Shown piece by piece: positions 25,282-44,277 of a DNA stretch of 64,000 nucleotides. Origin of the DNA: Trichococcus pasteurii (GTDB lineage: Bacteria; Bacillota; Bacilli; Lactobacillales; Aerococcaceae); the NCBI RefSeq assembly GCF_900112935.1, contig NZ_FONM01000017.1, forward strand, positions 1 through 64,000, given 5' to 3'. The notes below the pieces were generated by a model. It was not told the origin of the DNA, searched no databases, and saw only the letters and a program-made list of their open reading frames with translations. Both the position numbers and the translations under genes were made by a program. Positions within the stretch are counted from its first letter, which is position 1. Every line of letters starts with the position of its first letter.

Positions 25282-27834
25282 TTATTGACCATACGGCTCG
25301 CATATTTCATGATATCCGCTCTTTAACGCAATCTGCTCTCCGGATGGGAAAACTACTTGACATGTTGTGGAAACGGGCACATCGACTGCAATCGTCAGGC
25401 TATTTCCTTCGATTTTCCATTCCACTTCGATTTTTCCATAAGGAGTAATAGTGGATCCTTTCGCCCAAGTGATTCCGCCTCCGATCATCGGCTTCACCTG
25501 GAAAGAGCGGTAGCCACCCGTTACTGGTTCCAGCCCCAGCAGCCGTTTGTATAGCCAATCCCCTACCGCTCCATTCGCGTAATGATTGAAAGAAACCATG
25601 CCTCCTGCCGACTCTTCATTGGACTTTTTCCCTGACAGTTCCTCGATATTCACGGTTCCATCCGGGCGCAAAGCATCCCAACGTTCCCAGATTGTCGTCC
25701 CGCCGGCTTTGACTGCGTACAGCCAGGACGGGCACGTTTCTTGCAGCAGGAGCTCGTAGGCTTCCTCCAGCTTACCGTTGTCCGATAAAGCAAAGAGAAT
25801 GTAGGGAGTGCCTGTGAAACCAGTCGTCAGATGATTTTCCGCCTCTCGGATAAGCCGGCTCAAATTGGCCGCCATCTGCAAAGATTCTTTTCCGTCGACC
25901 ATATCGAAATGCAACGGCAGAACATATCCTGTCTGAAATTCCTGTTTCAGGTTTCCCTTCTCATCCGTAAAAGCTTTCCGGTAGGCAATGATGATTTTTT
26001 CTCTCAACGCTTCATAGTACGCCTGATCTTCTTTCCGGTCCAGCACTTCTGCAATTTGGCCCATGATACGGCAAGAGTTGGCGAAGTAGGCGGTGCCGAT
26101 CCACTTCCCCTTCTTCAGCCAATCCTTCACTTGTCCCTCGGGAGCAGCCCAGTCACCGAAGTGGAACGGAAACTGCCAAATATGGCTGTTTGTCGGTGAA
26201 GTGGCCAAAAACGAAGCCCACCACTTGGCAGCTTTCAAAAATCGTTGCATGGAAGCGTAATGCTCCTCCAGCACCTCCACTCTGCCTCCGGAAAGATACG
26301 CTGCCCAAGGAACGAGGATCGCACTGTCTCCCCAACACGAGCTGGCCATGGTCGGCCAATGATCCCCTGCCTTGGGGATCACCATCGGATAACCGCCTCC
26401 GCGACCTTGCTCGGAGCGCATATCCACCAGCCATTTATCGAAAAACCTGCTCATATCAAAGTTGTAGCAAGCTGTGGAAGCAAAGACAGCGATGTCTCCC
26501 GTCCATCCTTGGCGCTCATCCCGTTGAGGGCAGTCAGTAGGGATGTCCACAAAGTTGGATTTCCCGCCCCAGCGGATATTGCTTTGGAGCTGGTTCAACA
26601 ACGGATTCGAGCATGCGAACTGTCCGATTTCTTTCAGATCGGAGTGCAAAACAAAAGCTTCCAGCACAAGATCTTCTGGCGCGATACCGGACACGCCAAC
26701 ATAACGGAAGCCCATATAGGTCAGCTTAGGCGAATAGTGCTGCTCCCCATCCTTGCAGATGTAGGTGGCCGTTGCCTTGGCGGTGCGCAGCGATTTGACG
26801 AACAGTTCCTGTTCGACAAGCACTTCCGCGTGCCTGAAGACCAGCTTTTGGCCGTCTACCCCTTTTATCCTGGCGGAGATCACGCCCGCAAAATTTTGAC
26901 CGAAATCATAAATCCATTCCCCGCTTGGTGAGCGCTCCAGGCTGATGGGCCGCATCTTTTCCTGCCTTCTGACCGGCAATCCGTATTGGGCGATGATTTT
27001 GGGATCTTTGCGCGGCTTGGTGATGCCGGCACTTTTCCAACCGATTGCGTTTTCGCTGATGCGCGCATCATAAGTCTCTCCATCGTACCATTCGGCCATC
27101 CGGTAATTCCCTTCCAGGCTGACCATCCAAGTATCATCGGTAGCGACTGTCCGGGAAGAACCATCTTCATATTCAAGATGGATTTCAGCGAGGAGGGCCT
27201 GCCGGTCTGCACTGATTTTATTTTTGCGGATGTAGTTGAAGGCTCCTACTGCCCATCCGCCAGCGACAACAAAGCGGAGCTCGTTCGTCTCCTCCAACAA
27301 TCCAGTGATTTCATATGTTTGGTACTGGATCTGATTCAAGTAGGAAGTGAATCCTGGTGCAAAATAATCTTCCCCCACTTTCTTCCCGTTGAGACTCACT
27401 TCATAGACGCCCAAAGCGGTGCAGTTGATCCAAGCTCTCTTGATTTTCCCGGCAGCCTTAAATGACTTCAAAAAATTCATCGGGAGGGGGGACAATTTTT
27501 CGGGAACTTCATAGTCAAGATCCGTAATCCATTTGCCCGACCAAGGCGTATGCAGTCTTCCGGTCTGAAACACGGTAGCTGCCTTTGCGGATGCTCCGGA
27601 CTTTGTATAGGCTGTCACTTCGACTGTATATTCGGCAAAAGGTACCAAGGGCCCATCGTACCGGTTGTTGATTTGGTCTTTTGTGTTTACCTCCCAATCG
27701 TTCACCTTTATAAGCGCATGCGCAAATGCTTCCCCCGGTACATCGGAATACAAGGAAAAAGATAGGATAGGCGCCTTGTCGGTCACGCAACCCTTTTCCA
27801 AACCTTCAACTGTCAAACTGCTGATTCGTAGCAT
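25282..27834 (-). CDS. Alpha-L-rhamnosidase (GH78), locus 1
   Basis: Releases terminal L-rhamnose from plant glycosides. 850 residues: an N-terminal fibronectin-like domain, rhamnosidase N domains (about 100-400), an (alpha/alpha)6 barrel and a C-terminal beta domain. Catalytic regions are visible as DIPTDCPQRDERQGWTGD (E440) and TTIWERWDALRPDG (E717). No signal peptide, so it works on imported substrate. It is the last of four tightly spaced genes (GH3, dehydrogenase, transporter, GH78) and follows the transporter stop within a few bases. Confidence 0.93.
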   Translation of the reverse strand: MLRISSLTVEGLEKGCVTDKAPILSFSLYSDVPGEAFAHALIKVNDWEVNTKDQINNRYDGPLVPFAEYTVEVTAYTKSGASAKAATVFQTGRLHTPWSGKWITDLDYEVPEKLSPLPMNFLKSFKAAGKIKRAWINCTALGVYEVSLNGKKVGEDYFAPGFTSYLNQIQYQTYEITGLLEETNELRFVVAGGWAVGAFNYIRKNKISADRQALLAEIHLEYEDGSSRTVATDDTWMVSLEGNYRMAEWYDGETYDARISENAIGWKSAGITKPRKDPKIIAQYGLPVRRQEKMRPISLERSPSGEWIYDFGQNFAGVISARIKGVDGQKLVFRHAEVLVEQELFVKSLRTAKATATYICKDGEQHYSPKLTYMGFRYVGVSGIAPEDLVLEAFVLHSDLKEIGQFACSNPLLNQLQSNIRWGGKSNFVDIPTDCPQRDERQGWTGDIAVFASTACYNFDMSRFFDKWLVDMRSEQGRGGGYPMVIPKAGDHWPTMASSCWGDSAILVPWAAYLSGGRVEVLEEHYASMQRFLKAAKWWASFLATSPTNSHIWQFPFHFGDWAAPEGQVKDWLKKGKWIGTAYFANSCRIMGQIAEVLDRKEDQAYYEALREKIIIAYRKAFTDEKGNLKQEFQTGYVLPLHFDMVDGKESLQMAANLSRLIREAENHLTTGFTGTPYILFALSDNGKLEEAYELLLQETCPSWLYAVKAGGTTIWERWDALRPDGTVNIEELSGKKSNEESAGGMVSFNHYANGAVGDWLYKRLLGLEPVTGGYRSFQVKPMIGGGITWAKGSTITPYGKIEVEWKIEGNSLTIAVDVPVSTTCQVVFPSGEQIALKSGYHEICEPYGQ

Positions 27835-27836
27835 CT

Positions 27837-29288
27837 TTATTGCCTCCTTTCCTCAATCATTTTTTGTTTTTTGGTGATGTCTTTCTCCACGTCAATCAGA
27901 AACAACAGAAGAATCATGATGACGCCGGTAACGGTCTCCAGTCCCACAAAACCGAATGTAATGGCATCTTTTACGCCCTCATTCTGGGTCGCCACCAGTC
28001 TGCCGAGCTTATCGTAATGAGGAGCGACATAGCCGGAAGCCGAAAGCAGCGCGTTAAAAATGCCCAGGCATATCCCTCCCATGGTTACAGCAATGATGTT
28101 ATAGACAGACATCGCCACACCATCGCATCTATTGTTTGTCTTCCACTCGAGGTGATCCAAAACATCGGCAAATAGTGCCATGAACGTATAACTTACGGGC
28201 AAGACCCCGATATTTTTGATGACCTGGCCTGCCAAAAAGATCGGCATATTTTCCGGGAATGCCCAGCAGATTGCCCCTCCCGCCACAAAAAGGACGGAGC
28301 CTAAAATCATCGCATTTCTTTTGCCCATTTTCGTAGCGATCGGCCAAACCACCAACACCCCGATGCCCATCGGGATGCCGCCCAACAAGGAAATCAGCAT
28401 CTGGGTCTTTCCGTCATTGTAGGTGCCCAGTACATAGTTGCTGAAGTAAACTAGGCTCATATTCTTCATCAAGGCTCCTACCGTAAAAACCAAAAACAAC
28501 AATAGCGTCGCCAGCATAAATTTGTCCGAAAAAATGGCCTTCAGCTGATCCTTGTAAGAACCCGGGACGGACTGCGATTTGGCCGCCTCCTCGGTGACGC
28601 GTTCTTTCGTGAAAAAATACTCCGTCACCGTCAGCGGCAAAGCCAAGATGGAAAGGATACAGATCAGCAGGATCCACAGTTCCCTCTTCAGCCCGATCAG
28701 CGGCATGATCACCATCGGGAAAATGAAAGCAACCAATATTCCCGTGATCATCACAGCCGTTATTTGGTTGAAGACAGACAGCTTTCCTCGCTCCGCTGAA
28801 TTTCGGGTGGAAAGAGGCGCCATCAGGTTATGACTCATATTGAAGATGGTGAACGCGCAGGCATAATAGAGATTGTAAGAAAAAATTATCCAAATCACTT
28901 GGACCGTAAGACTGCTCTGCGGCACGACGACCAAAAGGATGCCCGATAACAGCAAAAGTGGCGCCGAAACCAAAAGCCACGGCCGGGCTTTACCTTGCCT
29001 GGTCTTCGTCCGGTCGATCCTGTAGCCCATGTAGATATTCACAAAAACATCAAGGGCTTTCGATGCAATCGGAAAAACGACCAGGAACAAGCCTCCCCAA
29101 ACAGTGGTCAGCTGCAGAACGTCCGTATAGAAAACATTCAAATAGGTAGCCAACACAGCGTTCAGAAGGAGTGCCCCGGCCGGTCCGATAAGGTAGCCGA
29201 GAAATTGCTCCTTTTTGCTGATCCGCTCTGTTTTGATTTTGGAATCCAAACCAGGATTCTGGAATAGGCCCAACAGTTTATTCATCAT
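27837..29288 (-). CDS. Glycoside-pentoside-hexuronide (GPH) family sugar transporter, locus 1
   Basis: A 12-helix secondary transporter, 483 residues, related to MelB/XynB-type cation symporters. The family feature [19 protein letters not shown] follows the second helix (about 78-96), and [26 protein letters not shown] sits in the central loop. The N-terminus is cytoplasmic and long. It probably imports the glycoside that the flanking GH3 and GH78 enzymes cut. ATG ATG at the start gives two possible initiators; GGAGAAGGACG lies upstream. Confidence 0.88.
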
Positions 29289-29309: not shown

Positions 29310-30827
29310 TCATACTTCCAGCTCGGTCACAACTTTTGGGTACACCCTATCCTCGGACTCATCATGCAGCGGTGTCCAGACTTGTGCAAAAAAAGGATCC
29401 ACTTTTGCGCGTTCGGCGTAGTTCCAGCTCTTTCTTTCGCAATCCGGGCACCAGTGGCCGGCTTCAAGCACCAGTTTTGGGCTCGCCTCGAATACATGCC
29501 CAGAGGCACAACGGAAGGTAAGCTTTTTCTGCCAATCGCCAGTATCCATCTGCGTCGAGAGACAGCTGCCGCCCCTGAATACAGCTGCGCCTTTGACATC
29601 ATACAAGTCGAGCATTTCCGGTTCCTTTTCTTCGTTATATCCATGATCCAGTTTTATGACATGGTCCCAATCCGTGAAATGCTTGAACGCGCTGAGCTTG
29701 GCGGGTATTTTTTCCCATTTGCTCTTGCCGCCCCAGTAAGCATCAATGTGGTCTTCCACGTCTTCCTCGATGAAGCGCACCGTTCCATGCTCGCTGGTGG
29801 CCTGCTTCCTCAGCATCTTTTTCATGATGCTTCCCATCATCTTTTCACCGCCGGGAAGGCTGCACATAATCTTGGCTGCTGTCGTTTGCATGCCGAGGTT
29901 CTCCAGGTAGCATTTGTAGAAATACTCCATTCCGTCCTGCCGGAAATGCAGATAGTCCTCCAATTTGTCGGAATCCAGATAATATTGGCCATGAAAGTTC
30001 CTGGTCGCATACCACTTAGGATCGATGACATGGTCGAGATTTTTGAAGCCGATCGCACCATAAAGAACTTGATACATTTCATAGGTGCTGACCCGACAGG
30101 ACTCCCCCCCGCCGATATTATAGACATGGTTCCAGAAATGCTCCGGCAGTTCTCCCTTGAACTCGTAGCGGCAAAGGTTGCCCATTAGCCTTCCGGAATC
30201 ACGGTCTGAGACATACTCCAACACATTGTCGAGACAATTATGGAACATGATGGCATCGACGATTTTACTCATCGCCGGCCCCATGATGCCGGTCTGGCGC
30301 AAACTGACCCAGTATTTCAGACCGGATTCTATGACCAACCGCTCCGCTGCTATCTTGGAGACTGCATAATAATCGAATATGCTTGGCTTGAGCGGATCCC
30401 CGACTCGTCCCCAGTGAATTGGCGGCATGCGATCGCCCGTTTCCGCGACGGTCCCGATATTGACCAACTTCGTGCGCTGTTCCTGCCCTAATTCAAAAAT
30501 GGCTTTGATGATGTTCCGTACCGATCCGTAGTTGATTTCCATCGCTTTTTTCGGATAATAGTCCGCAGCTGGAGAGACAAATGCCGCTATGTGGAGAATC
30601 ATATCAGCTCCTTTGACGCATTTCTTCACCAGTGCGTAGTCCAATAGATCCCCGTAATGGATCGTGACTTCCTTATAGGCAGCATAAGGCTGCAGCGCTT
30701 CCCGATCTTTCGGAGAGTCAACGGACAGAATGGTGATGTCGTACAGAACTCTATCGTTGATCATCTGCTTCAGGCTTTGCTGCCCCATGCCGCCGGAAGC
30801 GCCTGTGATAAATACTTTCTTTTTCAT
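29310..30827 (-). CDS. NAD-dependent epimerase/dehydratase family protein with C-terminal Cys/His domain
   Basis: 505 residues, far longer than a normal extended SDR (~310-350). The N-terminal Rossmann domain has GASGGMG (9-15) and the catalytic Tyr-Lys pair Y154-AVS-K158. After residue ~340 comes an extra C-terminal part with a probable zinc site, C440-x3-H444 and C460-x2-C463, within FRCASGHVFEAS and GHWCPDCERKSW. I do not know this architecture as a characterised enzyme. Its place between the GH3 and transporter genes suggests it acts on the released sugar or aglycone, for example an NAD-dependent oxidation or epimerisation. It follows GH3 by 8 bp. Confidence 0.75.
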   Translation of the reverse strand: MKKKVFITGASGGMGQQSLKQMINDRVLYDITILSVDSPKDREALQPYAAYKEVTIHYGDLLDYALVKKCVKGADMILHIAAFVSPAADYYPKKAMEINYGSVRNIIKAIFELGQEQRTKLVNIGTVAETGDRMPPIHWGRVGDPLKPSIFDYYAVSKIAAERLVIESGLKYWVSLRQTGIMGPAMSKIVDAIMFHNCLDNVLEYVSDRDSGRLMGNLCRYEFKGELPEHFWNHVYNIGGGESCRVSTYEMYQVLYGAIGFKNLDHVIDPKWYATRNFHGQYYLDSDKLEDYLHFRQDGMEYFYKCYLENLGMQTTAAKIMCSLPGGEKMMGSIMKKMLRKQATSEHGTVRFIEEDVEDHIDAYWGGKSKWEKIPAKLSAFKHFTDWDHVIKLDHGYNEEKEPEMLDLYDVKGAAVFRGGSCLSTQMDTGDWQKKLTFRCASGHVFEASPKLVLEAGHWCPDCERKSWNYAERAKVDPFFAQVWTPLHDESEDRVYPKVVTELEV

Positions 30828-30834: not shown

Positions 30835-33291
30835 TCATCCCCTGTTCTGATTTCTTGGTAATTCGGGCACCTTTATTTTGGTGGCGATTTTCTTTATCCC
30901 TTTCAGATACTGACCGTTCAGGATATCGACCAATCCTTGCGCAAGATTATAGCTGAATTTTCCGGAACTGCTGACCGACATCGACCGCAAGCTGTTGTTG
31001 GGCATCATCTTCATGATGAACATCCCATTTTTACGGTTCATGTCCTTTTTGGGCGACTCCGGCATTTTCAGTGCTTGTTCATATTGCTTTCTCCCGACGC
31101 CGACAACGGCTTTGTGGAATATCCGACCAACGAAAGAATCCTGAAGTTCATCCAGTTTCGATTCGATCGTATAGGCTTTTCGTCCCCCAGTTGCCGGCTC
31201 CAATTTCTTGCCCAACAAACACTCAAACTCTTCCCTAGTGACCAAGGAAAGCTTTTCTGCTTCTTGATAATGCGGCAATTGTTCCGTTGCATAGGGCGAT
31301 GGAACATCTTTCTGATCGGTTATCTCAAAAGCCAGTTTATGGCGGATTTCTGTGCTCGAACTGGCGAGGTACACCGTATAGGCGCCATTCTCCACAACCC
31401 AGTCGCCGATTCCGATATTGTAATAAGCCAGCTCCTTCAGCGAAATCCGGAAGGTGACGCGATCCGCTTCCCCCTTGGCAAGATACACTTTGCGGAAGCC
31501 GCGCAATTCTTTGAGCGGCTTAAATACAGCCGAACGCGGATTGCCGATGTAAAGCTGCACAATCTCCCCACCATCATAATCCCCGGTATTCTTTATGGTG
31601 CAGGAGACGATGATGTGGTCCTTTTCTCTGGTCAACTGTGGCTCCGCATAGGCAAAGGTGGTGTAGCTCAAACCATGTCCGAAAGGATAAAGGCTGTTTT
31701 CCGCAGGCAGCTGATCATAGTAACGGTAGCCGACAAACACAGACTCTTTGTAGCAGTCCTCTTTCGAAGTGACATATTCATCTCCGAACGGCACGGCAGC
31801 ATAAGTCTTCACCCATGTCTCCGCCAGTTTTCCGGACGGCGTTTTTTCCCCGAAGAGCAATTGAGCAGTCGCTTCCCCGCCGGCCTGTCCAGGCAGATAC
31901 ATATTCAGCAAAGCGGATAGTCCGTCCGCAAAGGGCAGCTCGACCGGCGAGCCCCCATACATCACAAAGATGATCTTTTTTCCAGCCCGGAGCAGACGTT
32001 CAATCAAACTTGCCTGATTAATCGGCAAGAGGATATTCGGTCTGTCGTAGCCTTCACTTTCGACACAATCGGTCTGCCCTCCGAAAAAGAGAATCTTTTC
32101 GTAGTTCTCGGCCCTCATCAGGACCTCTTTTTCCAGCTCAGGTTGAGCATCTGTATCCTCCTCCCGATAGCCTTGCACATATTCAAAGGCAATCTTCCGG
32201 GATCGGAAGGCCGCTTCAGGAGTGGTCAATTTGGTAGGATTGATCAAAGAACTGCCCGCTCCTTGGTAGCGCATTTTTTTGAACAGATCTCCCACCACCA
32301 AGAAAGATGCCTTCTTGTCCAGCGGAAGGATGCCGGCATTCTTCATAAGGACTGCCCCATCGACGGCGATTTCCTCGGAGATGCGGTTGTGTTTCTCCTC
32401 ATCAAAATCGGGTTGCACTCCGACAATCTTTGTATCTCCAATCATTTTTAAGATCCGTTTTACGGATTCGTCCAGCACGGATTCCGGCAAACTGCCGTTT
32501 TTCACGGCATTCAGAATCTGATTCCTGAAGTAGGCACAATCCCCCGGCATCTCCAGATCCATACCGGCTTTGAGACTGGCGATCCGATCCGACACACCGC
32601 CCCAATCACTGATCACCGCCCCCTCATATCCCCATTCGTTTCTTAATATTTTCGTAAGCAAAAGATGATTTTCCGAACAGTAGACGCCGTTCACTTTGTT
32701 ATAGGCGCTCATCACGGTTGTGGGTTGGCTTTCTTTCACGATTGTTTCGAAGGCTTTCAGGTAGATTTCCCTCAAGGCGCGTTCATCGACGACCGCATCG
32801 CCCATGAAGCGATAATCTTCATTGTTGTTTACAGCAAAGTGTTTTACAGAAGTCCCTATACCCTTTTCCTGCACCGCCAAAACAAATGCTTTGCCCATTT
32901 CTGCGGAAACCAAGGGATCCTCTGACAAGTATTCAAAATTTCTGCCGCAGCGCGGATTGCGTTTGATATTGACTGCGGGCCCCAAAATCATATTGACGCC
33001 AAAAAATTTGGACTCTTCGGCAACGGCTTCACCCATCTTCCGCATATTTTCCGGATTCCAACTGGACCCGAATGTCGCGCCGGTCGGGAAAGATGTCGTT
33101 CGTTCACTTTCGTTCAGACCCAGATGATCTCTATTCTCTCCCTGTTTCCTCAATCCACAAGGGCCATCCGTCATATACATCGATGGAATGCCTAGCCGCG
33201 GAATGGCATTCGTTTCCCAGAAATCCACACCGCTGACGAGGGCAGCTTTTTCTTCGAGAGTCATTAGCTGCACTTTTTCTTGGATATTCAT
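30835..33291 (-). CDS. Beta-glucosidase (GH3), locus 1
   Basis: 818 residues. The nucleophile Asp is D229 in VISDWGG; KHFAVNN (150-156) and RNPRCGRNFEYLSEDP (111-126) are standard GH3 blocks; the C-terminal half carries the (alpha/beta)6 sandwich and a fibronectin III-like domain. No signal peptide, so it is cytoplasmic. The ATG at 33291 (MNIQEKVQLMTLEEK) has GAGGAGG upstream; longer frames reaching past 33400 would overlap the divergent regulator promoter. It heads the locus 1 operon. Substrate could be beta-glucosides, xylosides or arabinosides. Confidence 0.9.
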   Translation of the reverse strand: MNIQEKVQLMTLEEKAALVSGVDFWETNAIPRLGIPSMYMTDGPCGLRKQGENRDHLGLNESERTTSFPTGATFGSSWNPENMRKMGEAVAEESKFFGVNMILGPAVNIKRNPRCGRNFEYLSEDPLVSAEMGKAFVLAVQEKGIGTSVKHFAVNNNEDYRFMGDAVVDERALREIYLKAFETIVKESQPTTVMSAYNKVNGVYCSENHLLLTKILRNEWGYEGAVISDWGGVSDRIASLKAGMDLEMPGDCAYFRNQILNAVKNGSLPESVLDESVKRILKMIGDTKIVGVQPDFDEEKHNRISEEIAVDGAVLMKNAGILPLDKKASFLVVGDLFKKMRYQGAGSSLINPTKLTTPEAAFRSRKIAFEYVQGYREEDTDAQPELEKEVLMRAENYEKILFFGGQTDCVESEGYDRPNILLPINQASLIERLLRAGKKIIFVMYGGSPVELPFADGLSALLNMYLPGQAGGEATAQLLFGEKTPSGKLAETWVKTYAAVPFGDEYVTSKEDCYKESVFVGYRYYDQLPAENSLYPFGHGLSYTTFAYAEPQLTREKDHIIVSCTIKNTGDYDGGEIVQLYIGNPRSAVFKPLKELRGFRKVYLAKGEADRVTFRISLKELAYYNIGIGDWVVENGAYTVYLASSSTEIRHKLAFEITDQKDVPSPYATEQLPHYQEAEKLSLVTREEFECLLGKKLEPATGGRKAYTIESKLDELQDSFVGRIFHKAVVGVGRKQYEQALKMPESPKKDMNRKNGMFIMKMMPNNSLRSMSVSSSGKFSYNLAQGLVDILNGQYLKGIKKIATKIKVPELPRNQNRG

Positions 33292-33435
33292 TAAGCGTAT
33301 CGCCTCCTCTTTATTTCTCTCCATTATAGAGAAACCGCCAACAACAATATTTCTTATTTGTTTCTTTTTATATATTTTTGTTTTATAGTTGAGAAAAAGA
33401 CCATTATGTCCCGCACACTCGAAAGGAGTCCGTTT

Positions 33436-34721: not shown

Positions 34722-35696
34722 CTATGACTCTATACATTTACACAAAGTCTCTCTGATCGACTCCAATACATCATGGTTTTTGATTCCCAGTACCGACATC
34801 GTTTCTGCAGGATCTACATAAAGGTTTTCCGTTTGGAGTTTCGAACTGACTACCATATGAATGCCGTGCTCCAGGCCAGCTCTTGTGGCATGCTCGTCCA
34901 GATTTTCGTAGACTGCCTTCATCTGCTCATAAGGTACGACCGGCACCTGTGTCGATTGCTGCTGCCCCAAGGCATCCACAATCATCTGATAAAATTCCTG
35001 GAATTTCATATTTTTTGCGCTGATCGGATAGCTTGTCCGGTGCATTCCTTTTTCCATGGCACCGACAGCCGCTTCCGCAACTTGCTCCACCGTGACCATT
35101 GCGGTCCCTCCCTCAAGCGCAGGGAAAATCGGCTGTCCCTTTGCCTGATCCACAAAAACGTTCCAGAGCGGCACTCGACCGGGCATCGTTCCGAAAATAT
35201 ACGGCAACCGCAGAGAAGTGACGGTCATGCCGCCTTCCCCTTCCGCAAAAGCAACCTGCTCCTGCAACAACCGCATATTCGGATAAGCCTGGCTTCTTAA
35301 CTTGTATTCCGGGAGCCTTTCTGCAAATTCCGCAAAATAGGAGCCGAACAGCACGAATTTTTTTACTCCGGCCAACTTCGCCAATTTTGCCAAGCGCTGC
35401 GTGGGCAGGACATTTGCTTCGTAGAAAAATTTCATAGCCGGCTTTTGCGGAACGGTCCGTTCATCCGCCCCCGCGGCATAAATGAACCCTTCACAATCCG
35501 ATAGGATGCCTATGATTTCTTCATCCTCCAATGCATTGATGTCCCCTAAGGTGCAGTATACTTCTTTTGGTAATAAATCTTCAGTTGGCAGAGGCGGCAA
35601 AGCCATCGTTTTGACTTCGTAGCCTTTCGACAGCAGCTCTTTAATGGTGTGATATCCCAGAAATCCCGTCCCACCCAGCACAAATACTTTTGACAT
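34722..35696 (-). CDS. NAD-dependent epimerase/dehydratase family protein, locus 2
   Basis: 324 residues, extended-SDR length. The cofactor motif GGTGFLG (8-14) is intact. The region where the catalytic YxxxK normally sits reads YPNMR (138-142), with Arg instead of Lys, so this is an atypical SDR that may bind NAD without classical dehydrogenase chemistry. It is the last gene of locus 2, 60 bp after the esterase, and corresponds in position to the long dehydrogenase of locus 1 although the sequences are only distantly alike. Function unknown; sugar or aglycone modification is inferred from context. Confidence 0.75.
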   Translation of the reverse strand: MSKVFVLGGTGFLGYHTIKELLSKGYEVKTMALPPLPTEDLLPKEVYCTLGDINALEDEEIIGILSDCEGFIYAAGADERTVPQKPAMKFFYEANVLPTQRLAKLAKLAGVKKFVLFGSYFAEFAERLPEYKLRSQAYPNMRLLQEQVAFAEGEGGMTVTSLRLPYIFGTMPGRVPLWNVFVDQAKGQPIFPALEGGTAMVTVEQVAEAAVGAMEKGMHRTSYPISAKNMKFQEFYQMIVDALGQQQSTQVPVVPYEQMKAVYENLDEHATRAGLEHGIHMVVSSKLQTENLYVDPAETMSVLGIKNHDVLESIRETLCKCIES

Positions 35697-35755: not shown

Positions 35756-36484
35756 TCAAGCCATATATTTGTTCATGAAGCTGACCGCATCATCAAACCA
35801 AGATTCCGCCAGCTCGCCTCGGGAGAACCCGCTTCCATGATACCCTTCCGAATATTGGCAAAATTTGCAGGGAATGCTTTTTTTGCATAATACTTCAAAA
35901 AGAGCATGACAGTTCTCTGGCGGAACAACTTCATCAGTCACGCAGTTCCATACAAAAGTCGGCGGATAACCAGAATCCACCTGGCTTTCAATGGAATAAG
36001 CAAGCTTTAAGGCATGATCAGCCTCCTTACCCAACAACCTTTCCCTGCTCCCTTGGTGTCCAAGAGAGTCTTGCATTGATATGACCGGGTAGGCCAACAC
36101 GAGGACACTGGGCTTCGGAAACTTATAGTGCTCATAGCCTAGTGCCTTGGTTCCGAACGAGGCTGCCAGATGTCCACCAGCAGAGGGTCCCCAAACCGAA
36201 AATTGCTGCCTATCTACGTTCAATTCTTCCGCATTATCAAGAATATATCTGATGGCTCTTGCCAAATCATCCATAGGCTGTGGGGCTTGAGCACCCGCCT
36301 TTGTGTGGTAGTACAAGACAAAGGCTGAGTACCCGAGAGCATTTAGCTTCTTTGCATAGGGATCGCCCTCTATTCCGGCAGCAACCATTTCATATCCACC
36401 TCCGGGGCAAATAACCACAAAAGGTGATTTCTTTCCCAAGATGTAACTCCTCAATTCATATTTACTTTTCAGCATTAACATCAA
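35756..36484 (-). CDS. Alpha/beta-hydrolase esterase (acetyl-xylan/feruloyl esterase-like), apparent N-terminal frameshift
   Basis: The Ser hydrolase nucleophile lies in GPSAGGH, the acid in CVTDEVVP, the His in EGYHGSG, and the oxyanion hole in CPGGGYE, as in BD-FAE-type esterases. The frame from 36484 has no ribosome site. A second frame from a GTG at 36521, preceded by AAAGGG and overlapping the GH78 stop, encodes MNLTEEEQWQMFLDVNAE before a stop at 36462; removing one A from the run at 36466-36469 joins it to SKYELRSYILGKK, which I recall as the usual family N-terminus. So the gene is either frameshifted or the sequence has an error there. It probably removes acyl groups from glycosides in locus 2. 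Confidence 0.75.
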   Translation of the reverse strand: MMLMLKSKYELRSYILGKKSPFVVICPGGGYEMVAAGIEGDPYAKKLNALGYSAFVLYYHTKAGAQAPQPMDDLARAIRYILDNAEELNVDRQQFSVWGPSAGGHLAASFGTKALGYEHYKFPKPSVLVLAYPVISMQDSLGHQGSRERLLGKEADHALKLAYSIESQVDSGYPPTFVWNCVTDEVVPPENCHALFEVLCKKSIPCKFCQYSEGYHGSGFSRGELAESWFDDAVSFMNKYMA

Positions 36485-36517: not shown

Positions 36518-39259
36518 TCACGCGATTTCCCTTTCTCTCTCATTTAATTTATTGATGACGAAATGGTACAATTCTGCTCCTTCCGGAGGCATGACGGCTG
36601 TCAGCTCCGTGATTGTCATCTTGTGCGCAAACGAAATCAGCGGGTTTTCCAGCATTCCGGGCGCTAACTGATCAAACAATTCAACAGCATAAGCATCAGA
36701 GAGAATAAACTCCAGTGTGCTCTCCAAACTGTATTTAGCAATTCTCAAGTCCGTTTCGGTCGCATACTCATAATGATACTTTCCGGAACCCAGTTCTAAT
36801 TGGTCTGCTTTTTCGGGAAGAATGACCACCGCTGTCGTATTTGCAGGTATTTCGATATCGATGGAAATCATCCCGCTTTCACATTTCCATGCGCTTCTGA
36901 CTTTGCCATAGGCCGTGTTATAGGAAGCATCCAGCCACGTCAGACCTTTTGTGAGCATTGGTGCGATTTTGATTTTTTTATAACCGGGTGCCAACGGATT
37001 GATGCCTGCCAGTTTGCGGTACATCCAATCGCCGATCGATCCGTATGCATAGTGGTTCAGCGAATTCATCCCTGATTCATCAAAACTGCCATCAGGCAAA
37101 ATGGAATTCCAACGTTCCCAAATGGTTGTGGCTCCCTTATTCACCGCGTACAACCAGGAAGGATAGTCTTCCTGCAGAAACACTTTGGTTGCCAATTCAT
37201 GTTCACCATTTTCGGACAACACGTGGCAAAGATACGGCGTGCCGACAAAGCCCGTGGACAAATGATTTTTATGCTCAGCCAAGTTGACGATGAGTGTCTT
37301 TAATATGCGGGCACGATGTTCTTCTTGGATAAGATTGAAATGCAGCGCCAATACACAAGCTGTTTGCGTTTCGCTCACCAACCGGCCAGTTTCGGTAATA
37401 TATTCGCTCTGGAATTGCGCCAACACCTCGTGATGAAGGCTGTCATAGTGTTCGGCGTCCGTCTCTTCGCCAATGATCGCAGCTGCTTGGCGCAAGATAT
37501 CCAGGGAATGAAGATAGTAGGCATTTGCCACAAAGTAACGATCCGTCGCCCCGGTACGGTCTGAGCTCTCTTCCTTATCCAGAGCGAGCCAATCTCCATA
37601 CTGGAAGCCTGTCTGCCAAAGCCCATTGGCACTTACTTTGGAGGTGATGTAATCCACCCATCCTTTCATGCTGGCGTACTGTTGCTCCAAAACCGTCTTG
37701 TCTCCGTAGTTCAGGTACAGATTCCACGGTATGATGGTGGCTGCATCGCTCCAGGCGGCAGCCCCGTCCTGATTACCCAAAATATTCGGTACCACATGTG
37801 GTACGCCATGTTCCACAGTTTGCTCGGAAGCCAAGTCCCTGAGCCATTTCTGGAAAAAGCGTTGGGATTGGAAGTTGAACATCGCTGTGTTGGAAAAAAT
37901 CTGCGCATCCCCCGTCCATCCCAAGCGTTCATCCCGTTGCGGGCAATCGGTCGGGATATCCAAGAAATTGCCGCGTTGTCCCCATTCGATATTGCTTTGC
38001 AGCTGATTAATCCCGGCATGCGAACAAGCAAACGTGCCGGTCTGCTGCATATCGGTGTGCATGACGCAGGCGACAAAATCCTCTTTCACGATGTTGTCCA
38101 AGCCTTCGATCGCTATGTATCTGAAACCGTGGAAGGTGAAATGCGGACACAGCGTTTGCAGCTCTCCGTTCAAAACGTAAACATCATGGGATGTGGCCTG
38201 CCTTAGGGTATCCGGATAGAAGTTGCCGTCTTTGTCCAATGTTTCCGCGTGTTTGATCGTTATCTGCTGGCCTTTTTCCCCTTTAACTTTGAAGGAGACG
38301 AAGCCGGACAGATTCTGGCCGAAGTCCAATACCTTTTCGCCCTTCGGTGTTTCAATGTAGCTGACTGCAGGGAACCGTTTCGTTATCCGGACAGGCTCCG
38401 ATTCCTGCGCAACCATGTTTTCCCTTGGATACTCCGTGATCCGGGCAGTTCCGGCGAACGTTCTCTGGAAGGTAGTGTCCTGCACTTCCCCCAGATATAT
38501 TTCGCTGCTTCGGATGGAGCCGTATTCTACTTGCCACGTCTCATCCGTTCCGATTATTTCCTTGGTGCCGTCCTCATAGTTCAGGTGGATTTCAGCCAAT
38601 GCCGCCACCTGATTGCCATAGATGTTCGGCTGCATCGTAAAGCCGAAGATCCCTTTGTACCAGCCGTTCCCGACTGTCAACTCGATGCTGTTTTCTTCAT
38701 CGAGGAGATCCTCCAAGCCATAGGTTTGATATTGGAGGCGCTTATGGTAATTCGTCCAGCCGGGTGCAAAATAGTGATCCCCCACTTTTTGGCTGTTCAG
38801 CTTGATTTCATAGACCCCCAAGGCGGAAGCATAGACGCGGGCACTCGTGACTTTTTTCGGAGCATGGAATTTTTTCCTAAACACCGGACATGCTGTCTCA
38901 TCATCTTGCTGGTCAAAAGTGATCCAGCGTGCTTGGAAGTTTTCCCCGGACAATAAACCGGTTTCAAACCATGCATTGCTGACAGCCTGGTTGCCATGAT
39001 TGTCCCAAACCGTCACACCGACTCGATATCTGGTGCTTGGCTCCAACGCAACACCCGCATAAGCAATAGCAACAGAATCAGCAGACTCAACCCTGCCGCT
39101 GTCCCAAACTTCCTGATCGTTATCTTCCACAGTAATTTGATAAGCCACTTGCACGGTTTGCTTTTCATCCGCAGACAGCCTCCAATCAAAGGTTGGGCGC
39201 CGCGTATCCATTCCGATAGGGTTCATTTGATTTTCAACATATACCTTGTCAATTCTCAC
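36518..39259 (-). CDS. Alpha-L-rhamnosidase (GH78), locus 2
   Basis: 913 residues with the same domain order as the locus 1 enzyme plus a ~100-residue C-terminal extension. The catalytic block DIPTDCPQRDERLGWTGD includes E444; the second carboxylate is in TTIWERWNSILPDG. The GTG at 39259 (encoding MRIDKVYVENQMNPIG) was chosen because GGGAGG lies eight bases upstream; an ATG at 39313 lies inside the transporter gene. The C-terminus (about 800-913) contains SLESTLEFILSDAYAVELFDQ and ITELTAVMPPEGAELYHFVI, which resembles the C-terminal tail of GH3 enzymes next door. Confidence 0.92.
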   Translation of the reverse strand: MRIDKVYVENQMNPIGMDTRRPTFDWRLSADEKQTVQVAYQITVEDNDQEVWDSGRVESADSVAIAYAGVALEPSTRYRVGVTVWDNHGNQAVSNAWFETGLLSGENFQARWITFDQQDDETACPVFRKKFHAPKKVTSARVYASALGVYEIKLNSQKVGDHYFAPGWTNYHKRLQYQTYGLEDLLDEENSIELTVGNGWYKGIFGFTMQPNIYGNQVAALAEIHLNYEDGTKEIIGTDETWQVEYGSIRSSEIYLGEVQDTTFQRTFAGTARITEYPRENMVAQESEPVRITKRFPAVSYIETPKGEKVLDFGQNLSGFVSFKVKGEKGQQITIKHAETLDKDGNFYPDTLRQATSHDVYVLNGELQTLCPHFTFHGFRYIAIEGLDNIVKEDFVACVMHTDMQQTGTFACSHAGINQLQSNIEWGQRGNFLDIPTDCPQRDERLGWTGDAQIFSNTAMFNFQSQRFFQKWLRDLASEQTVEHGVPHVVPNILGNQDGAAAWSDAATIIPWNLYLNYGDKTVLEQQYASMKGWVDYITSKVSANGLWQTGFQYGDWLALDKEESSDRTGATDRYFVANAYYLHSLDILRQAAAIIGEETDAEHYDSLHHEVLAQFQSEYITETGRLVSETQTACVLALHFNLIQEEHRARILKTLIVNLAEHKNHLSTGFVGTPYLCHVLSENGEHELATKVFLQEDYPSWLYAVNKGATTIWERWNSILPDGSFDESGMNSLNHYAYGSIGDWMYRKLAGINPLAPGYKKIKIAPMLTKGLTWLDASYNTAYGKVRSAWKCESGMISIDIEIPANTTAVVILPEKADQLELGSGKYHYEYATETDLRIAKYSLESTLEFILSDAYAVELFDQLAPGMLENPLISFAHKMTITELTAVMPPEGAELYHFVINKLNEREREIA

Positions 39260-39281: not shown

Positions 39282-40679
39282 TTACTGATTTTTTCGATCA
39301 GCCAGTTCCGCAATGATTTGTGGATACATTTTCTCTAGTGATTCATATTTTTTGGCAAATATGAATATGATGATGTAAAGAACCAAAGGAATGTAGACAG
39401 CTATCGCATAGATGGCATTTATTGCACTTGTAGGTTGCACTGAAAGTGATGCATTATATGCACCCAGCGCCAGTACCCAACCAGTAAGGGATGCTCCTAG
39501 ACCCACTCCCACTTTTCCGCCAAATCCGGTAACACTGTTGGTCATGCCAAGCAGGCGTTTCCCTGTTTTCCATTCATTGTAATCAACGCAGTTATTCGTC
39601 ATTACTCCAACCAGTGACATAATCGGAATCATCCCGAATGTAGGTAAAAGCCCTGCAGTGACGGTCAATATAAAGCTTCCGGGTGCAAAGGCACGGATAG
39701 CGGTTCCTAGGATGGCGATGGCCATAGATACATAGACTGTTTTAGTTACACCAAGTTTCTTCACCATAGGTCCCACTAATAGAAAACCTGCAAAAGTAGG
39801 AATCAAGCCTATCCCTCCAAGAAGGGCCACAAGATTATCATCCCCTAATACCCATTTCGCATAATATGCTCCTGTAGCTCCTGATAACCCAAAGCTTAGC
39901 TGACTGAATAGGCTGACCATTAACATGTATACCCAATACTTATTCCGGAATAGGATTTTCACCCCTTCTTTAAATGAAACTTCTTCCACTTCTGAATTAT
40001 CCTCACTTGAAACGATTTCATTTTTATTGCTGGTTTCTCTTGATTTGTGATAAAGAATCCAAAAAGATAAACAAGCGATTCCGCCAAATATGATTCCTAT
40101 CTTTATCCACGCTTGCTGATCGCCCCCAAACATGTTAGTCAATGGGATAACCATAATTGCGATAACCATCCCCGATACATATCCTAGAGCAGCACGGAAA
40201 ATCCCCATTTTACTGCGCTCTTCTTGACTTTTTGTGCGCAATGCCATTATAGCTCCATAAGGAATTGCGACAGCTGTGAAGACAATCGCACTCAACAAGA
40301 CATTCGTGATTAATACAAAGGCAAGCTTCCCATTTACATCCAATCCAGCTGGGATCATGAACAACGCAGGGATAAGTACCAAGGCCGGAAAAGCCATACG
40401 TAAAAACCAAGGACGACATTTGCCCTTTGGAGACTTTCCGTTATCCATTATTTTGCCCATTATTAAATCCGTAAAAGCATCAATAATTTTTGAAATCAAG
40501 AGCATGGTAGCGACTGCCCCCGCAGCCAAGCCTACTTTATCTGTATAAAAATAAATTAATTGCCCAATCAATCCACTGATTATATTCAAACCTAATTGCC
40601 CTAAACCATCTGCAAGATAATCACTCAGTACCATTGTTTTTTCTATTCCCATACGATCATGCTGTATTTCTGCTGCCAT
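39282..40679 (-). CDS. GPH-family sugar transporter, locus 2
   Basis: 465 residues with twelve predicted helices. GKIMDNGKSPKGKCRPWFLRM after the second helix and RTKSQEERSKMGIFRAALGY in the middle are family markers. The gene is visibly more AT-rich and uses more A/T-ending codons than the GH3 and GH78 genes on either side, which suggests a separate origin. It starts 4 bp after the GH3 stop. It presumably imports the glycoside for this locus. Confidence 0.88.
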   Translation of the reverse strand: MAAEIQHDRMGIEKTMVLSDYLADGLGQLGLNIISGLIGQLIYFYTDKVGLAAGAVATMLLISKIIDAFTDLIMGKIMDNGKSPKGKCRPWFLRMAFPALVLIPALFMIPAGLDVNGKLAFVLITNVLLSAIVFTAVAIPYGAIMALRTKSQEERSKMGIFRAALGYVSGMVIAIMVIPLTNMFGGDQQAWIKIGIIFGGIACLSFWILYHKSRETSNKNEIVSSEDNSEVEEVSFKEGVKILFRNKYWVYMLMVSLFSQLSFGLSGATGAYYAKWVLGDDNLVALLGGIGLIPTFAGFLLVGPMVKKLGVTKTVYVSMAIAILGTAIRAFAPGSFILTVTAGLLPTFGMIPIMSLVGVMTNNCVDYNEWKTGKRLLGMTNSVTGFGGKVGVGLGASLTGWVLALGAYNASLSVQPTSAINAIYAIAVYIPLVLYIIIFIFAKKYESLEKMYPQIIAELADRKNQ

Positions 40680-40683
40680 GCTT

Positions 40684-42975
40684 TTATACCTCCTGATATA
40701 TTTTTTCGTTCAATTGATTCACTAATTCATTCAACTTACCCCGCGTGACACCCGGCATGAAACTCGCCAACTGCCTCAGCGGCATGTCCGCCATCATGGC
40801 AGCGATCATTTCGCTGGAAATGGCTGAATTTTCATGAGTGGCTTGATTCTCACTTGCATTGTCTGCTACAGGCACATAGAATCCAGCCAATGCATTTTCC
40901 AAAATCGCTCCGGTATGTGCGTTCTTCATGATGTCGCCCATCCGCGAGTTCAGATGATAGACAACCGGAATTTCGACGGATGACTGCACTTCCACATTTT
41001 CAGAAAGCACTGTTTCTTTGGCCGATTTCCCGATTTGAACTTCATAAGCGCCGCTTTCTGCGTACCAATCGTTAATTTCCGTATTCCAATAGGCAAAGCT
41101 TCTTTTGTTCAATGTAAACGTCATTGTCCGCTTTTCGCCGGGCTGAAGTTCGATTTTTTCAAAGCCTTTCAATTCTTTGGCTGGACGGACAATCGTATTT
41201 GATTTTGGCGAAACGTAAAGCTGGACCACTTCTTTCCCGACTCTTTCACCCGTGTTCTCCACATCAACGGACACGTTTAATTCTTCGCTGTCCAGCATTG
41301 TCGTTTTATCGAGCTTCAGATTCGAATATTGGAAAGTTGTATAGGACAGGCCGTGTCCGAATGGAAACAGTACCTCCATCGCTTTGCTCTCGTAGTAGCG
41401 GTACCCGACGAATACACCTTCGCTGTAGTCCACTTGCTCGTTATCCTTGCCGAAGGAAAGATAAGACGGATTGTCTTCCAGGCGCAGCGGAAAGGTTTCT
41501 GCCAAACGGCCGCTAGGATTAGTTTTGCCGAAAAGAATGTTGACGACCGCAGCGCCCACTTCTTGACCGCCTAAATACGCTTCCAAAACAGCCGATACGG
41601 ATGCGATCCAGGGCATCTCCACTGCTGATCCGTTGTGGAGCACGACTACGGTATTCGGTTGGACATGGCTGACGGAGGCAATCAGTTCATTCTGCCAATC
41701 AGGCAAGTTCATATGCTTTCGGTCATACCCTTCCGATTCGAAACTGTCCGGTAAACCTGCAAAAATGACCGCCACTTCGGCCTGCTGTGCTGTTTCAATG
41801 GCATTCCGGAGCATCTTTTCATCCGGTCCTTCATCCGTGAATCCTGGTGAATAGAGGATGTTGGCATTTCCGGAGACAGCATCCAGTGCGGAAGTGACCC
41901 GATAGCTGTTGATGTTGGAGCTTCCGCCGCCTTGATAGCGTGGTTTCGCTGCATATTTTCCAATAAAGGCGATTTTCTTGTCCGCTGACAGCGGCAAGAG
42001 CTCCCCTTCATTCTTGAGCAGAATGATCGATTCTTCAGCAATTTCTCTGGCTATTTCGCTGTCCTTCTCGCGATCGAACACAGCCGATTCGTTGCGGTTT
42101 TCCGTGTAACGGAAAATCAGTCCCAGAATGGCGGCGCAGCTACGATCGAGAATCGCTTCATCCAGAAGCCCTGATTCGACGGCTTCAACAATCGCTTGGT
42201 CATTCTCTTCTGCCGGTCCGGGCATCTCGATGTCCACTCCGGCTTTCAAACCGGCAACCCGCTCATTCATGGCTCCCCAATCGGTCATCACCAGACCGTC
42301 GAAGCCCCATTCCTTACGCAAAATGTCCGTCATGTATCGTTTGTTTTCTGAAGCGAATACGCCATTGATCCGGTTGTAGGCGGACATCATTGTCCATGGC
42401 TTCTGTTCGATGACCATGCCTTCGAAGGCCGCAAGATAGATTTCCCGCAAGGTCCGCTCATCCACTTCCGAAGAACTTGTTGTTCTACGGGTCTCCTGAT
42501 TGTTTGCAAGAAAATGTTTCGGCGAAGTCCCGATGTTTTGGCTTTGCACACCTTCAACAAAAGCACCAGCCAATTCCGTAGTCAAAAGCGGGTCCTCTGA
42601 ATAATATTCGAAGTTGCGGCCGCACAACGGCGAGCGCTTGATGTTCATCGCCGGACCCAATATGGTACTGATGTTTTCCGCTTGGCATTCATTGCCTAGC
42701 GTTTCGCCCAATTTTTTTAGTAATCCGCGATCAAAACTGGCAGCCGAAGCGCAACCAGCCGGAAAGCAGACAGCCGCAATGCTTTCGTTCAGGCCCAAGT
42801 GGTCTCCGGCAACCTCTTGTTTCCGCAATCCGTGCGGACCGTCCGCGACCATGACTGCCGGAACCCCCAATCTCTCAACGCCTTTCAGATGCCAGAAATC
42901 CTGCCCGCTGCACAGGCTGGCCTTTTCTTCCACTGTCATCTGAGCAATGATCTGTTTAATTTTATCTTGTTGCAT
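40684..42975 (-). CDS. Beta-glucosidase (GH3), locus 2
   Basis: 763 residues. Nucleophile D232 in VMTDWGAM; PKHFLANNQ (152-160) and RSPLCGRNFEYYSEDP are the conserved substrate-binding blocks; the C-terminal fibronectin III-like domain is present, followed by a short tail (about 690-763) with a helical QLASFMPGVTRGKLNELV segment. No signal peptide. GAGAGGAG precedes the ATG. It heads locus 2 and diverges from the regulator at 43090. Related to the GH3 of locus 1 but clearly not a recent duplicate. Confidence 0.9.
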   Translation of the reverse strand: MQQDKIKQIIAQMTVEEKASLCSGQDFWHLKGVERLGVPAVMVADGPHGLRKQEVAGDHLGLNESIAAVCFPAGCASAASFDRGLLKKLGETLGNECQAENISTILGPAMNIKRSPLCGRNFEYYSEDPLLTTELAGAFVEGVQSQNIGTSPKHFLANNQETRRTTSSSEVDERTLREIYLAAFEGMVIEQKPWTMMSAYNRINGVFASENKRYMTDILRKEWGFDGLVMTDWGAMNERVAGLKAGVDIEMPGPAEENDQAIVEAVESGLLDEAILDRSCAAILGLIFRYTENRNESAVFDREKDSEIAREIAEESIILLKNEGELLPLSADKKIAFIGKYAAKPRYQGGGSSNINSYRVTSALDAVSGNANILYSPGFTDEGPDEKMLRNAIETAQQAEVAVIFAGLPDSFESEGYDRKHMNLPDWQNELIASVSHVQPNTVVVLHNGSAVEMPWIASVSAVLEAYLGGQEVGAAVVNILFGKTNPSGRLAETFPLRLEDNPSYLSFGKDNEQVDYSEGVFVGYRYYESKAMEVLFPFGHGLSYTTFQYSNLKLDKTTMLDSEELNVSVDVENTGERVGKEVVQLYVSPKSNTIVRPAKELKGFEKIELQPGEKRTMTFTLNKRSFAYWNTEINDWYAESGAYEVQIGKSAKETVLSENVEVQSSVEIPVVYHLNSRMGDIMKNAHTGAILENALAGFYVPVADNASENQATHENSAISSEMIAAMMADMPLRQLASFMPGVTRGKLNELVNQLNEKIYQEV

Positions 42976-43033: not shown

Positions 43034-43062
43034 TTGCACATTTATTCGTTTCATTGTATATT
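43034..43062 (+). promoter_or_regulatory. Promoter of locus 2 regulator
   Basis: TTGCAC (43034-43039), a 17-bp spacer and TATATT (43057-43062) precede the regulator start at 43090. Confidence 0.55.
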
Positions 43063-43089
43063 TGTTGTATCTTGAAAGGGTGTGCAACG

Positions 43090-44277
43090 ATGAACCATAA
43101 TCTACTGACGCATTGCAAATTTTTTTATGAAGCCTTCTTTATTCCCATCTATATCCACCAGGAAGAAACTTTATTGGGCTGCTTTCCTGACCAGCATTCA
43201 GCTTTTTATCCTCCGGAAAAACTTGTGCAGGATATTTTATCTCATCCGGACACTATCGGCTATATTTCCGGCAGCGCCTTTTCTTATTACGGCTATCTGA
43301 AACTGAAAGATGCCCCCGAGTGCAGCATCATCATCGGCCCGATTTCCGGCGTACCTTATGAAAAATCCATGCTGCAGGCGCTCATCGATCACTACGGAAT
43401 CCCAGAGGAACTCCATCCCGCAGCCGGCTCCTTTTTCAGAAACATTCCGTTATCTGACTTGTCCGCCTTTCTGGGAAAACTCGTACTGATGCATCATGTA
43501 ATCAATCAGGAGGACATCTCGATTGACGCGCTGTTCCCGCTCAACGCCTTTCCCTCCGCCAAATCGATCCAGAAGAAAGGAACAGAAAACGTCTATTCCA
43601 TCCGGGAGGAAAACCAGTTCAACAATTCCTACGAAGTTGAAAAACTAATTCTTTCTTTTATCGCGGATGGAAACCTTGAGGGCTTCGACACTTTTCTCAA
43701 AACGCCGATGCATGTGCAAATGGGCGCTGTAGCAAATGACAATATCCGTCAGCTCAAGAACACCTTCATCGTGTCCATCGCTCTTTTCACTAGAACAGCT
43801 ATTCAAGCAGGTGTGGAAACGGAGATTGCTTTCCAACTCTCGGATCTTTACATAAAACAGGCCGAGCAATTGACGAATCCAGACCATATTCTTTCGCTGC
43901 AGGTGGAAGCCATCCATACGTTCACTTCGAAAGTGTCCGAGCATCGCCTCCCTTTTTTGAGCGACTCGGACATTAGGCAGATTGTCCATCATATCCAACG
44001 CCATATCGATCAGCCGTTGAATGTGGACACGATCGCAGAAGAACTGCGGTTCAACCGTTCCTATCTCTCCCATAAATTCCATAAAGAAACGGGAATGAAG
44101 TTGCATGCCTTCATCCAGGACTGCAAAATACAGGAAGCTAAAAGGTTGCTGACCTTCACTAACAAAAGTATCAGCGAAATCAGCAATTATCTTTGTTTTT
44201 CCAGCCAAAGTCATTTCCAGAACGTTTTCAAAAAAGTAATCGGAACCACACCGAACCAATTTCGCAAAAAAAACTAA
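43090..44277 (+). CDS. AraC-family regulator, locus 2 (paralogue of 33436-34611)
   Basis: 395 residues. Same layout as the locus 1 regulator: N-terminal sensing domain, helical linker (NNSYEVEKLILSFIADGNLEGF matches NNSYAVESRVCRYVENGELEKV), then two helix-turn-helix motifs, with NYLCFSSQSHFQNVFKKVIG at the end. AAAGGG lies ten bases before the ATG at 43090. Divergent from the GH3 gene it presumably controls. Confidence 0.85.
   Translation: MNHNLLTHCKFFYEAFFIPIYIHQEETLLGCFPDQHSAFYPPEKLVQDILSHPDTIGYISGSAFSYYGYLKLKDAPECSIIIGPISGVPYEKSMLQALIDHYGIPEELHPAAGSFFRNIPLSDLSAFLGKLVLMHHVINQEDISIDALFPLNAFPSAKSIQKKGTENVYSIREENQFNNSYEVEKLILSFIADGNLEGFDTFLKTPMHVQMGAVANDNIRQLKNTFIVSIALFTRTAIQAGVETEIAFQLSDLYIKQAEQLTNPDHILSLQVEAIHTFTSKVSEHRLPFLSDSDIRQIVHHIQRHIDQPLNVDTIAEELRFNRSYLSHKFHKETGMKLHAFIQDCKIQEAKRLLTFTNKSISEISNYLCFSSQSHFQNVFKKVIGTTPNQFRKKN

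Follow-up and report, generated by a model that had tools for sequence, protein, structure and literature searches.

Adjacent probable rhamnoside operons in Trichococcus pasteurii, with a recurrent SDR partner and a helical domain apparently common to unrelated enzymes

As the closest described counterparts of the system considered here, the alpha-L-rhamnosidases of lactic acid bacteria belong to the same family GH78, and a table lists rutin, hesperidin and similar flavonoid rutinosides as possible substrates for RhaB1/Ram1 of L. plantarum and Ram/Ram2 of Pediococcus acidilactici (available text of PMC11901676). In L-rhamnose regulons, rhamnosidases and transporters are co-regulated with rhamnose catabolism (available text of PMC3870299). 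A further comparison is offered by the gut beta-glucuronidases (GUS) that bind flavin mononucleotide (FMN), whose C-terminal domain of ~150 residues is unresolved in crystals and, in the Rh3 enzyme, is important for the processing of triclosan glucuronide (available sections of PMC8748916), while its removal from Rh2 GUS caused an eightfold loss on mycophenolate glucuronide, and a gate was suggested (available sections of PMC9377255). In the present work we describe a window of Trichococcus pasteurii DNA, that is, the whole stretch of 64,000 nucleotides analysed (bases 1-64000 of contig C35, in a 3.2 Mb genome), where two adjacent operons on the minus strand each encode a GH3 hydrolase, a GPH-type (MFS_2) symporter and a GH78 hydrolase, and we pay special attention to SDRa, a short-chain dehydrogenase/reductase (SDR) protein of the first operon, and to a helical domain found at the ends of two enzymes of the second.

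By Pfam and the translations of open reading frames (ORFs), locus 1 consists of the regulator AraCa divergent from GH3a-SDRa-GPHa-GH78a, and locus 2 of AraCb divergent from GH3b-GPHb-GH78b-esterase-SDRb. Since the intergenic gaps are only 2-59 bp (2, 21 and 7 bp in the locus 1 operon; 59, 33, 19 and 4 bp in that of locus 2), a single transcript per operon is suggested. Judging from the protein families and their arrangement, we lean towards the view that intact plant rhamnosyl-glucosides would be imported and deglycosylated in the cytoplasm, that SDRa would act on the aglycone, and that the helical domain would gate or recruit the aglycone. The GH78-GH3-GPH-AraC core is itself a system of an already known kind, and in the order Lactobacillales it is common for a GH78b-like gene to be accompanied by GPH and AraC genes; what seems to be new, as far as searched, is the recurrent partnership of SDRa together with the shared domain. 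Neither a pairing of GH78 with SDRa nor a domain common to these enzymes was found described in the accessible open-licence literature, with queries that did not name the loci of SDRa. The words 'operon', 'transporter' and 'dehydrogenase' are absent from the available text of PMC11901676, which mentions neither SDRs nor the shared domain; in that of PMC3870299, where 'GH78', 'glucosidase' and 'Paenibacillus' are absent, the dehydrogenases of L-rhamnose regulons act on lactaldehyde or free rhamnose and no SDRa-like partner is mentioned.

SDRa (29310..30827, minus strand; Epimerase 9.9e-17) is an extended SDR. In an alignment of 16, from which L045, an SDRa with internal stops, was excluded, G9, G12, G15, Y154 and K158 are invariant, which we take to be the Rossmann glycine motif and the YxxxK motif, respectively; a C-terminal extension bears the likewise invariant C440, H444, H458, C460 and C463, a Cys/His set that looks like a metal site. 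The scan of genome contigs gave 10 SDRa-matching loci, five of them close (64-83%; Sporolactobacillus, two Paenibacillus, Scatolibacter and Evansella), and all five have GH78a within ~9 kb, while L166-L170, with 24-29% identity, were not counted as SDRa orthologues. Moreover, in family f12, which presumably contains Paenibacillus, SDRa is present in 10 of 216 genomes, with GH78 within ~9 kb in 8 of the 10. Because L163 and L188 (G831) are very likely one record and L187 (G803) is close to L162, the five named and ten f12 loci do not amount to 15 independent cases. A search for the same five-gene set in other genomes, proposed as a check in the original prediction, recovered the exact set of locus 1 in Sporolactobacillus (L161) and Evansella (L165). 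The two Paenibacillus loci (L162, L163) have no GPHa, but carry GH3b and GPHb directly upstream, and the Scatolibacter stretch (L164) holds, besides SDRa, GPHa and GH78a, a further GH78 and a relative of SDRb, with no GH3 match. Compared with its Sporolactobacillus counterpart SDRa reaches 83%, and GH3a, GPHa and GH78a reach 70-77%, that is, SDRa is conserved as much as or more than its operon neighbours.

Such a recurrence has to be weighed against ordinary rhamnoside scavenging, for which the core would suffice and the SDRs and the esterase would be passengers with unrelated roles. The core minus SDRa is indeed common in the order, where GH78, GH3, GPH and AraC-type genes stand together in 13 of 30 fetched GH78 stretches (L101-L130), and relatives of SDRb lie apart from GH78 and GH3 in all 21 fetched loci. 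For SDRa itself, the relatives at ~50% found in 4 of 294 other Lactobacillales genomes are in no case near GH78, and two of the ten f12 loci (L186 and L189) have none within ~9 kb; these loci weigh against the role we favour, and because of them SDRa can be said to work without GH78. Pure passengers were favoured by the order-level scan, and for SDRa this was reversed by the five GH78-linked named loci. Against the passenger view stand also the position of SDRa inside the operon, flanked by gaps of 7 and 21 bp, its repeated pairing with GH78, at 64-83% identity, in Sporolactobacillus, Evansella, Paenibacillus and Scatolibacter, and the order GH78-esterase-SDR that appears again in G803, where the SDR belongs to a different class. 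We regard scavenging with mere passengers as unlikely, though it deserves to be kept in mind, and return to SDRa as a probable member of the pathway.

As to what SDRa acts on, its neighbours provide some indication. Among the 13 SDRa loci clustered together with the window (L163 and L188 stood outside this set), 9 of 14 loci have a TetR-type gene in the neighbourhood of SDRa; it is divergent and within 175 bp in 8, and in L164 it is 1.2 kb away with the SDRb relative in between; an MMPL gene is near SDRa in 4 of 14 loci at 0.7-7.9 kb, and one member each of the TetR and MMPL clusters was confirmed by Pfam. The loci L186 and L189, with no GH78 nearby, also carry the TetR gene. TetR and MMPL neighbours are an indirect sign of a hydrophobic ligand such as the freed aglycone, on which SDRa probably acts. 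Two observations weigh against this: by neighbour clusters the TetR and MMPL genes are absent from the window itself and from L161, L162, L165 and L187, and the model of SDRa, of moderate quality (mean predicted local distance difference test, pLDDT, 75), has nucleotide-sugar dehydratases and epimerases as its nearest folds. A substrate was not obtained from this structure, and because of such folds a sugar substrate is possible for SDRa. SDRa, and SDRb as well, would then act on sugars or breakdown products, for example by oxidation of a hydroxyl on a sugar of the imported glycoside, as in keto-sugar deglycosylation routes, or on lactaldehyde from rhamnose, and the extended-SDR fold agrees with this, the folds near SDRb being mixed. 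On the other side, a complete hydrolytic pair is present, the TetR and MMPL neighbours in relatives fit a hydrophobic ligand better, and among the ORFs of the clustered SDRa loci, most of which were given a brief look, none stood out as a Gfo/Idh/MocA partner. Altogether we hold a sugar-directed role to be quite improbable and keep the aglycone as the favoured substrate. Two side observations belong to these loci: in G803 a Gfo/Idh-like ORF (by eye) lies at L226:8694-9785, ~25 kb from SDRa, among apparent sugar-nucleotide genes, and in f12 a GH5 with Glyco_hydro_5_C is near SDRa at L189:16949-18364 (no GH78 nearby) and at L192:11728-13149.

The other SDR behaves differently. SDRb (34722..35696, minus strand; Epimerase 1.7e-12), at the end of locus 2, is an atypical extended SDR (YxxxR) in which Y138 is invariant and position 142, that of the YxxxK lysine, is Arg in 15 of 16 rows. 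Its confident model (pLDDT 95.7) matches SDRs at Z about 26, the nearest folds being a mix of nucleotide-sugar enzymes, complex I subunits and phenylpropanoid-type reductases. When the neighbourhoods (~9 kb each side) of its relatives were counted for 21 of the 39 other genomes that gave a match, GH78 or GH3 was found in 0 of 21 other Lactobacillales loci; these relatives have 33-79% identity (17 of the 21 at 65-79%), and a regulator-like neighbour gene, AraC-type in the single case checked with Pfam, is common to 12 of 21. Relatives at 36-38% adjoin SDRa/GH78a in Sporolactobacillus and Scatolibacter. That an SDR in both loci points to a further redox or epimerisation step, as originally predicted, is strengthened for locus 1, where SDRa is a recurrent partner of GH78 across genera; an equivalence of the two SDRs is not supported. 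The two had been taken as counterparts, but they align over just 58 residues (29%), which rules out duplicated copies of one gene. Between SDRb and GH78b lies a BD-FAE-type alpha/beta-hydrolase esterase (35756..36484, minus strand; BD-FAE 2.9e-21), overlooked originally; neither it nor SDRb has the shared domain described below.

The second main result concerns the ends of GH78b (36518..39259, minus strand, ORF to 39313; the start near 39259 agrees with the starts of homologues) and GH3b (40684..42975, minus strand; Glyco_hydro_3_C 1.3e-56). Though unrelated in fold, both proteins appear to end in a similar helical domain of ~75 residues, encoded at 36524..36769 for GH78b and 40687..40992 for GH3b on the minus strand, with profile matches of 8.7e-27 and 2.0e-25, respectively, each protein itself being in the profile. 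When 28 GH78 tails were compared with 9 GH3 tails by hhalign, the probability was 93-95%, with E of 3.3e-7 and 5.6e-8 depending on the direction, while 200 column shuffles gave at most 0.8% and the reversed alignment 0.1%; the tail alignments were picked by cut-offs of identity and length, and several of the 9 GH3 rows come from one Paenibacillus group. With a hidden Markov model (HMM) of GH78 tails only, GH3 tails are found at 4.1e-6, a GH2 tail at 2e-4, an SDR N-terminus at 1.6e-3 and a GH3 N-terminus at 2.6e-3, the best reversed decoy being at 2.7. The joint profile A3, built from 13 of the 37 tails, gave 34 matches in 14 of 16 whole genomes, chosen mostly for carrying GH78 or SDRa: 15 on GH78, 13 C-terminal and 2 N-terminal on GH3, 2 on GH2, 1 on an SDR and 1 on a BD-FAE-type esterase. 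Many of the GH78 and GH3 matches are to be expected, since tails of both built the profile; those on GH2, SDR, esterase and the N-terminus of GH3 are independent. In G803 the SDR and, weakly, the esterase of the recurring gene order carry the domain themselves. No Pfam or NCBIfam family matched the tails of GH78b and GH3b at E<=1.

The strength of this link is uneven: all five GH3 tails below 1e-3 by the GH78-only HMM come from one Paenibacillus group (L162, L163, L187, L188, L206), GH3b of the window reaches just 0.09, and with the converse GH3-only HMM the best score of a GH78 tail is 0.0085. Considering both sides, homology of the domain has, from the profile comparisons, good support at the level of the families and more indirect support for GH3b of the window. 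Of the proteins of the own genome, GH78b and GH3b alone pass E 0.01 with the joint profile, though the GH78 tails of contigs C21 and C39 sit in the 28-row alignment. The tail of GH3a was tried as the same domain and found weak, with a probability of 32% against GH3b tails and 1.2% between GH78 and GH3a tails. As a separate observation, at L226:4275-5261 a BD-FAE-type esterase, 41% to that of the window, has the shared domain at its C-terminus, and the neighbour gene is weakly GH78-like (25% to GH78a).

Among solved structures, the domain profile matches 7ms2 and 8j9f, which are GH3, and 7kgz. The GH3 beta-glucosidases 7ms2 and 8j9f, the best solved relatives of GH3b, have a C-terminal tail and match GH3b in full length, the C-terminal domain included, unlike GH3a, whose tail is longer and different. 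For the GH78 proteins the best solved relatives are 3w5m (SaRha78A) and 6gsz, with the region of E636 conserved, and their alignments stop before the C-terminal domain of GH78b. In 7kgz, the Rh3 FMN-binding beta-glucuronidase, residues 650-731 match profile A3 at E 2.9e-4, moderate evidence that concerns Rh3 only; these gut enzymes have a GH2 catalytic domain, and their C-terminal domain is about twice the length of the shared one. By analogy with them, we put forward the hypothesis that the domain may be an aglycone gate or docking module. It could also be a tail that serves oligomerisation or stability and has nothing to do with the substrate, as it is small, divergent and terminal, with a position varying between the C- and the N-terminus. 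All 34 matches, however, fall on glycoside hydrolases or, within such loci, on an esterase or SDR, and Rh2 GUS lost most of its activity on one substrate together with its C-terminal domain (PMC9377255, available sections), albeit the sequence match here is to Rh3. We give the stability tail a substantial, yet minority, share of the probability, and still prefer the aglycone-related role. A bolder extension, in which the mobile domain would be a common aglycone-handling or docking module of bacterial deglycosylation, borne by rhamnosidase, beta-glucosidase, beta-glucuronidase, esterase and dehydrogenase, by which consecutive enzymes hold the same bulky aglycone, or each other, and take a plant glycoside apart in a transient assembly, is speculative and we rather doubt it.

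The assignment of the other proteins rests on family tests. GH78a (25282..27834, minus strand; Bac_rhamnosid6H 2.5e-104) and GH78b (5.1e-128) both exceed the cut-offs of four Bac_rhamnosid Pfam models, covering the catalytic 6-hairpin domain and its GH78 flanks, and both have the motifs QRDER.GWTGD and TTIWERW, whose glutamates we assume to be the catalytic residues of GH78; in GH78b the QRDER glutamate is aligned with E636 of 3w5m. Beside this, GH78a appears as two overlapping pieces in Sporolactobacillus (L161:13022-15570) and P. xylanexedens (L163:11543-14069) with different break points, which may be a frameshift or a sequencing error. GH3a (30835..33324, minus strand, ORF to 33441 with the start near 33324 preferred; Glyco_hydro_3 1.5e-41) and GH3b are beta-glucosidase-like, and each exceeds the Pfam cut-offs for GH3 N, for GH3 C and for the Fn3-like domain; the top NCBIfam model is alpha-L-arabinopyranosidase, below its cut-off, with a beta-glucosidase model second, which makes the second sugar uncertain. 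Of the symporters, GPHb (39282..40679, minus strand; MFS_2 2.3e-72) scores 285.5 with TIGR00792, above the cut-off of 231.35, and GPHa (27837..29288, minus strand) scores 186.1, below it, despite MFS_2 at 4.6e-89. By hydropathy alone, none of the five hydrolases has a signal-peptide-like stretch in its first 40 residues, where the best 12-residue value is <=1.32, against 2.83 in an ORF of the window that resembles a lipoprotein, as had been claimed of the hydrolases from the outset. Furthermore a gene of L-rhamnose isomerase (rhaA) is on another contig of the same genome.

Put together, each AraC regulator (AraCa 33406..34611, HTH_18 5.1e-21; AraCb 43090..44277, HTH_18 1.3e-20; both plus strand, the latter probably starting near 43090 rather than at 42799, a position inside GH3b) would probably switch on its own operon upon a glycoside or a glycoside product. 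The GPH-type symporter would import the intact glycoside, as its family and the absent signal-peptide-like starts suggest; GH78, by family an alpha-L-rhamnosidase of presumably cytoplasmic location, would take off the terminal alpha-L-rhamnose and feed the RhaA pathway; and GH3 would remove the next sugar, most likely beta-glucose. In locus 2 the esterase may cleave an acyl group, and in locus 1 SDRa would most likely oxidise or reduce the freed hydrophobic aglycone, whereas the domain of GH3b and GH78b might gate or recruit the aglycone near the active site, in analogy with the FMN-binding beta-glucuronidases. Import followed by intracellular cleavage, already proposed in the original prediction, is likely by the anatomy, namely by the families, the starts with no signal-peptide-like stretch, the GPH symporters, the own rhaA and the rhamnose genes at the orthologous locus of G051.

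How widespread the core is can be seen from homologues of GH78b at E <= 1e-100, which occur in 20 of 295 genomes of the order, the own genome counted. For example, L111 has the gene order of locus 2, its counterparts of GH3b, GPHb and GH78b being 60, 48 and 55%, and ~2 kb beyond this core the genes typical of rhamnose breakdown follow, namely those of an FGGY kinase, of RhaA, of a class II aldolase and of an Fe-ADH. The best match of GH3a in 12 further genomes of the same genus is 42%; locus 1 may have been acquired recently or may have been lost in the relatives. In G619, GH78b and GPHb are followed by GH3a, GPHa and GH78a, and in G749 by GH78a, GPHa and a GH3; as a-type and b-type genes thus stand within ~20 kb in both, their co-occurrence is not unique to the window. 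The expectation that the combined system may be undescribed was accordingly too broad, with the core in 13 of 30 loci and the exact locus 1 set in two other genera.

Between the two loci of the window, GH78a and GH78b share 38% over 862 residues, GH3a and GH3b 43% over 677, AraCa and AraCb 32% over 418, and GPHa and GPHb 25% over 426; the proteins are thus related yet divergent, and with a different gene order, just as first described. The twin plan holds for AraC, GH3, GPH and GH78, which are in both loci, and breaks down at the SDRs, which are no duplicated pair, and the esterase of locus 2. The whole genome has 5 GH78 and 6 GH3 genes, among them those of a further GH3-GPH-AraC-GH78 locus on contig C21, so that the plan extends beyond the twins. 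A shared operator was sought in the two AraC intergenic regions with nothing convincing, the longest common word being 8 bases.

Some other features of the window were noted in passing. The twins are adjoined by a raffinose/melibiose-type locus at 16059-24213, where the translations judged by eye show a GH36-like alpha-galactosidase, a GH13 resembling sucrose phosphorylase, genes for ABC-type sugar transport and a regulator of the AraC type. At 54304-55983, an ORF of 559 amino acids has an Amt-like N-terminal part and a PII/GlnB-like C-terminal part, an apparent fusion by eye, and at 48652-48822 a tandem array with a 51-bp unit in 3.4 copies is located between listed ORFs of >=180 amino acids.

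Through deglycosylation, microbes decide how active plant flavonoids and saponins are, and likewise many glucuronidated drugs, and according to the available parts of two papers of 2022 (PMC8748916, PMC9377255) the C-terminal domain of FMN-binding GUS is important yet structurally unresolved. With relatives of the Rh3 domain on unrelated enzymes of glycoside loci, a puzzle of one enzyme class becomes a general hypothesis that is testable, and the window encodes two candidate soluble proteins for such a test. SDRa, for its part, is a specific and recurrent candidate for a step that would act on the aglycone after hydrolysis.

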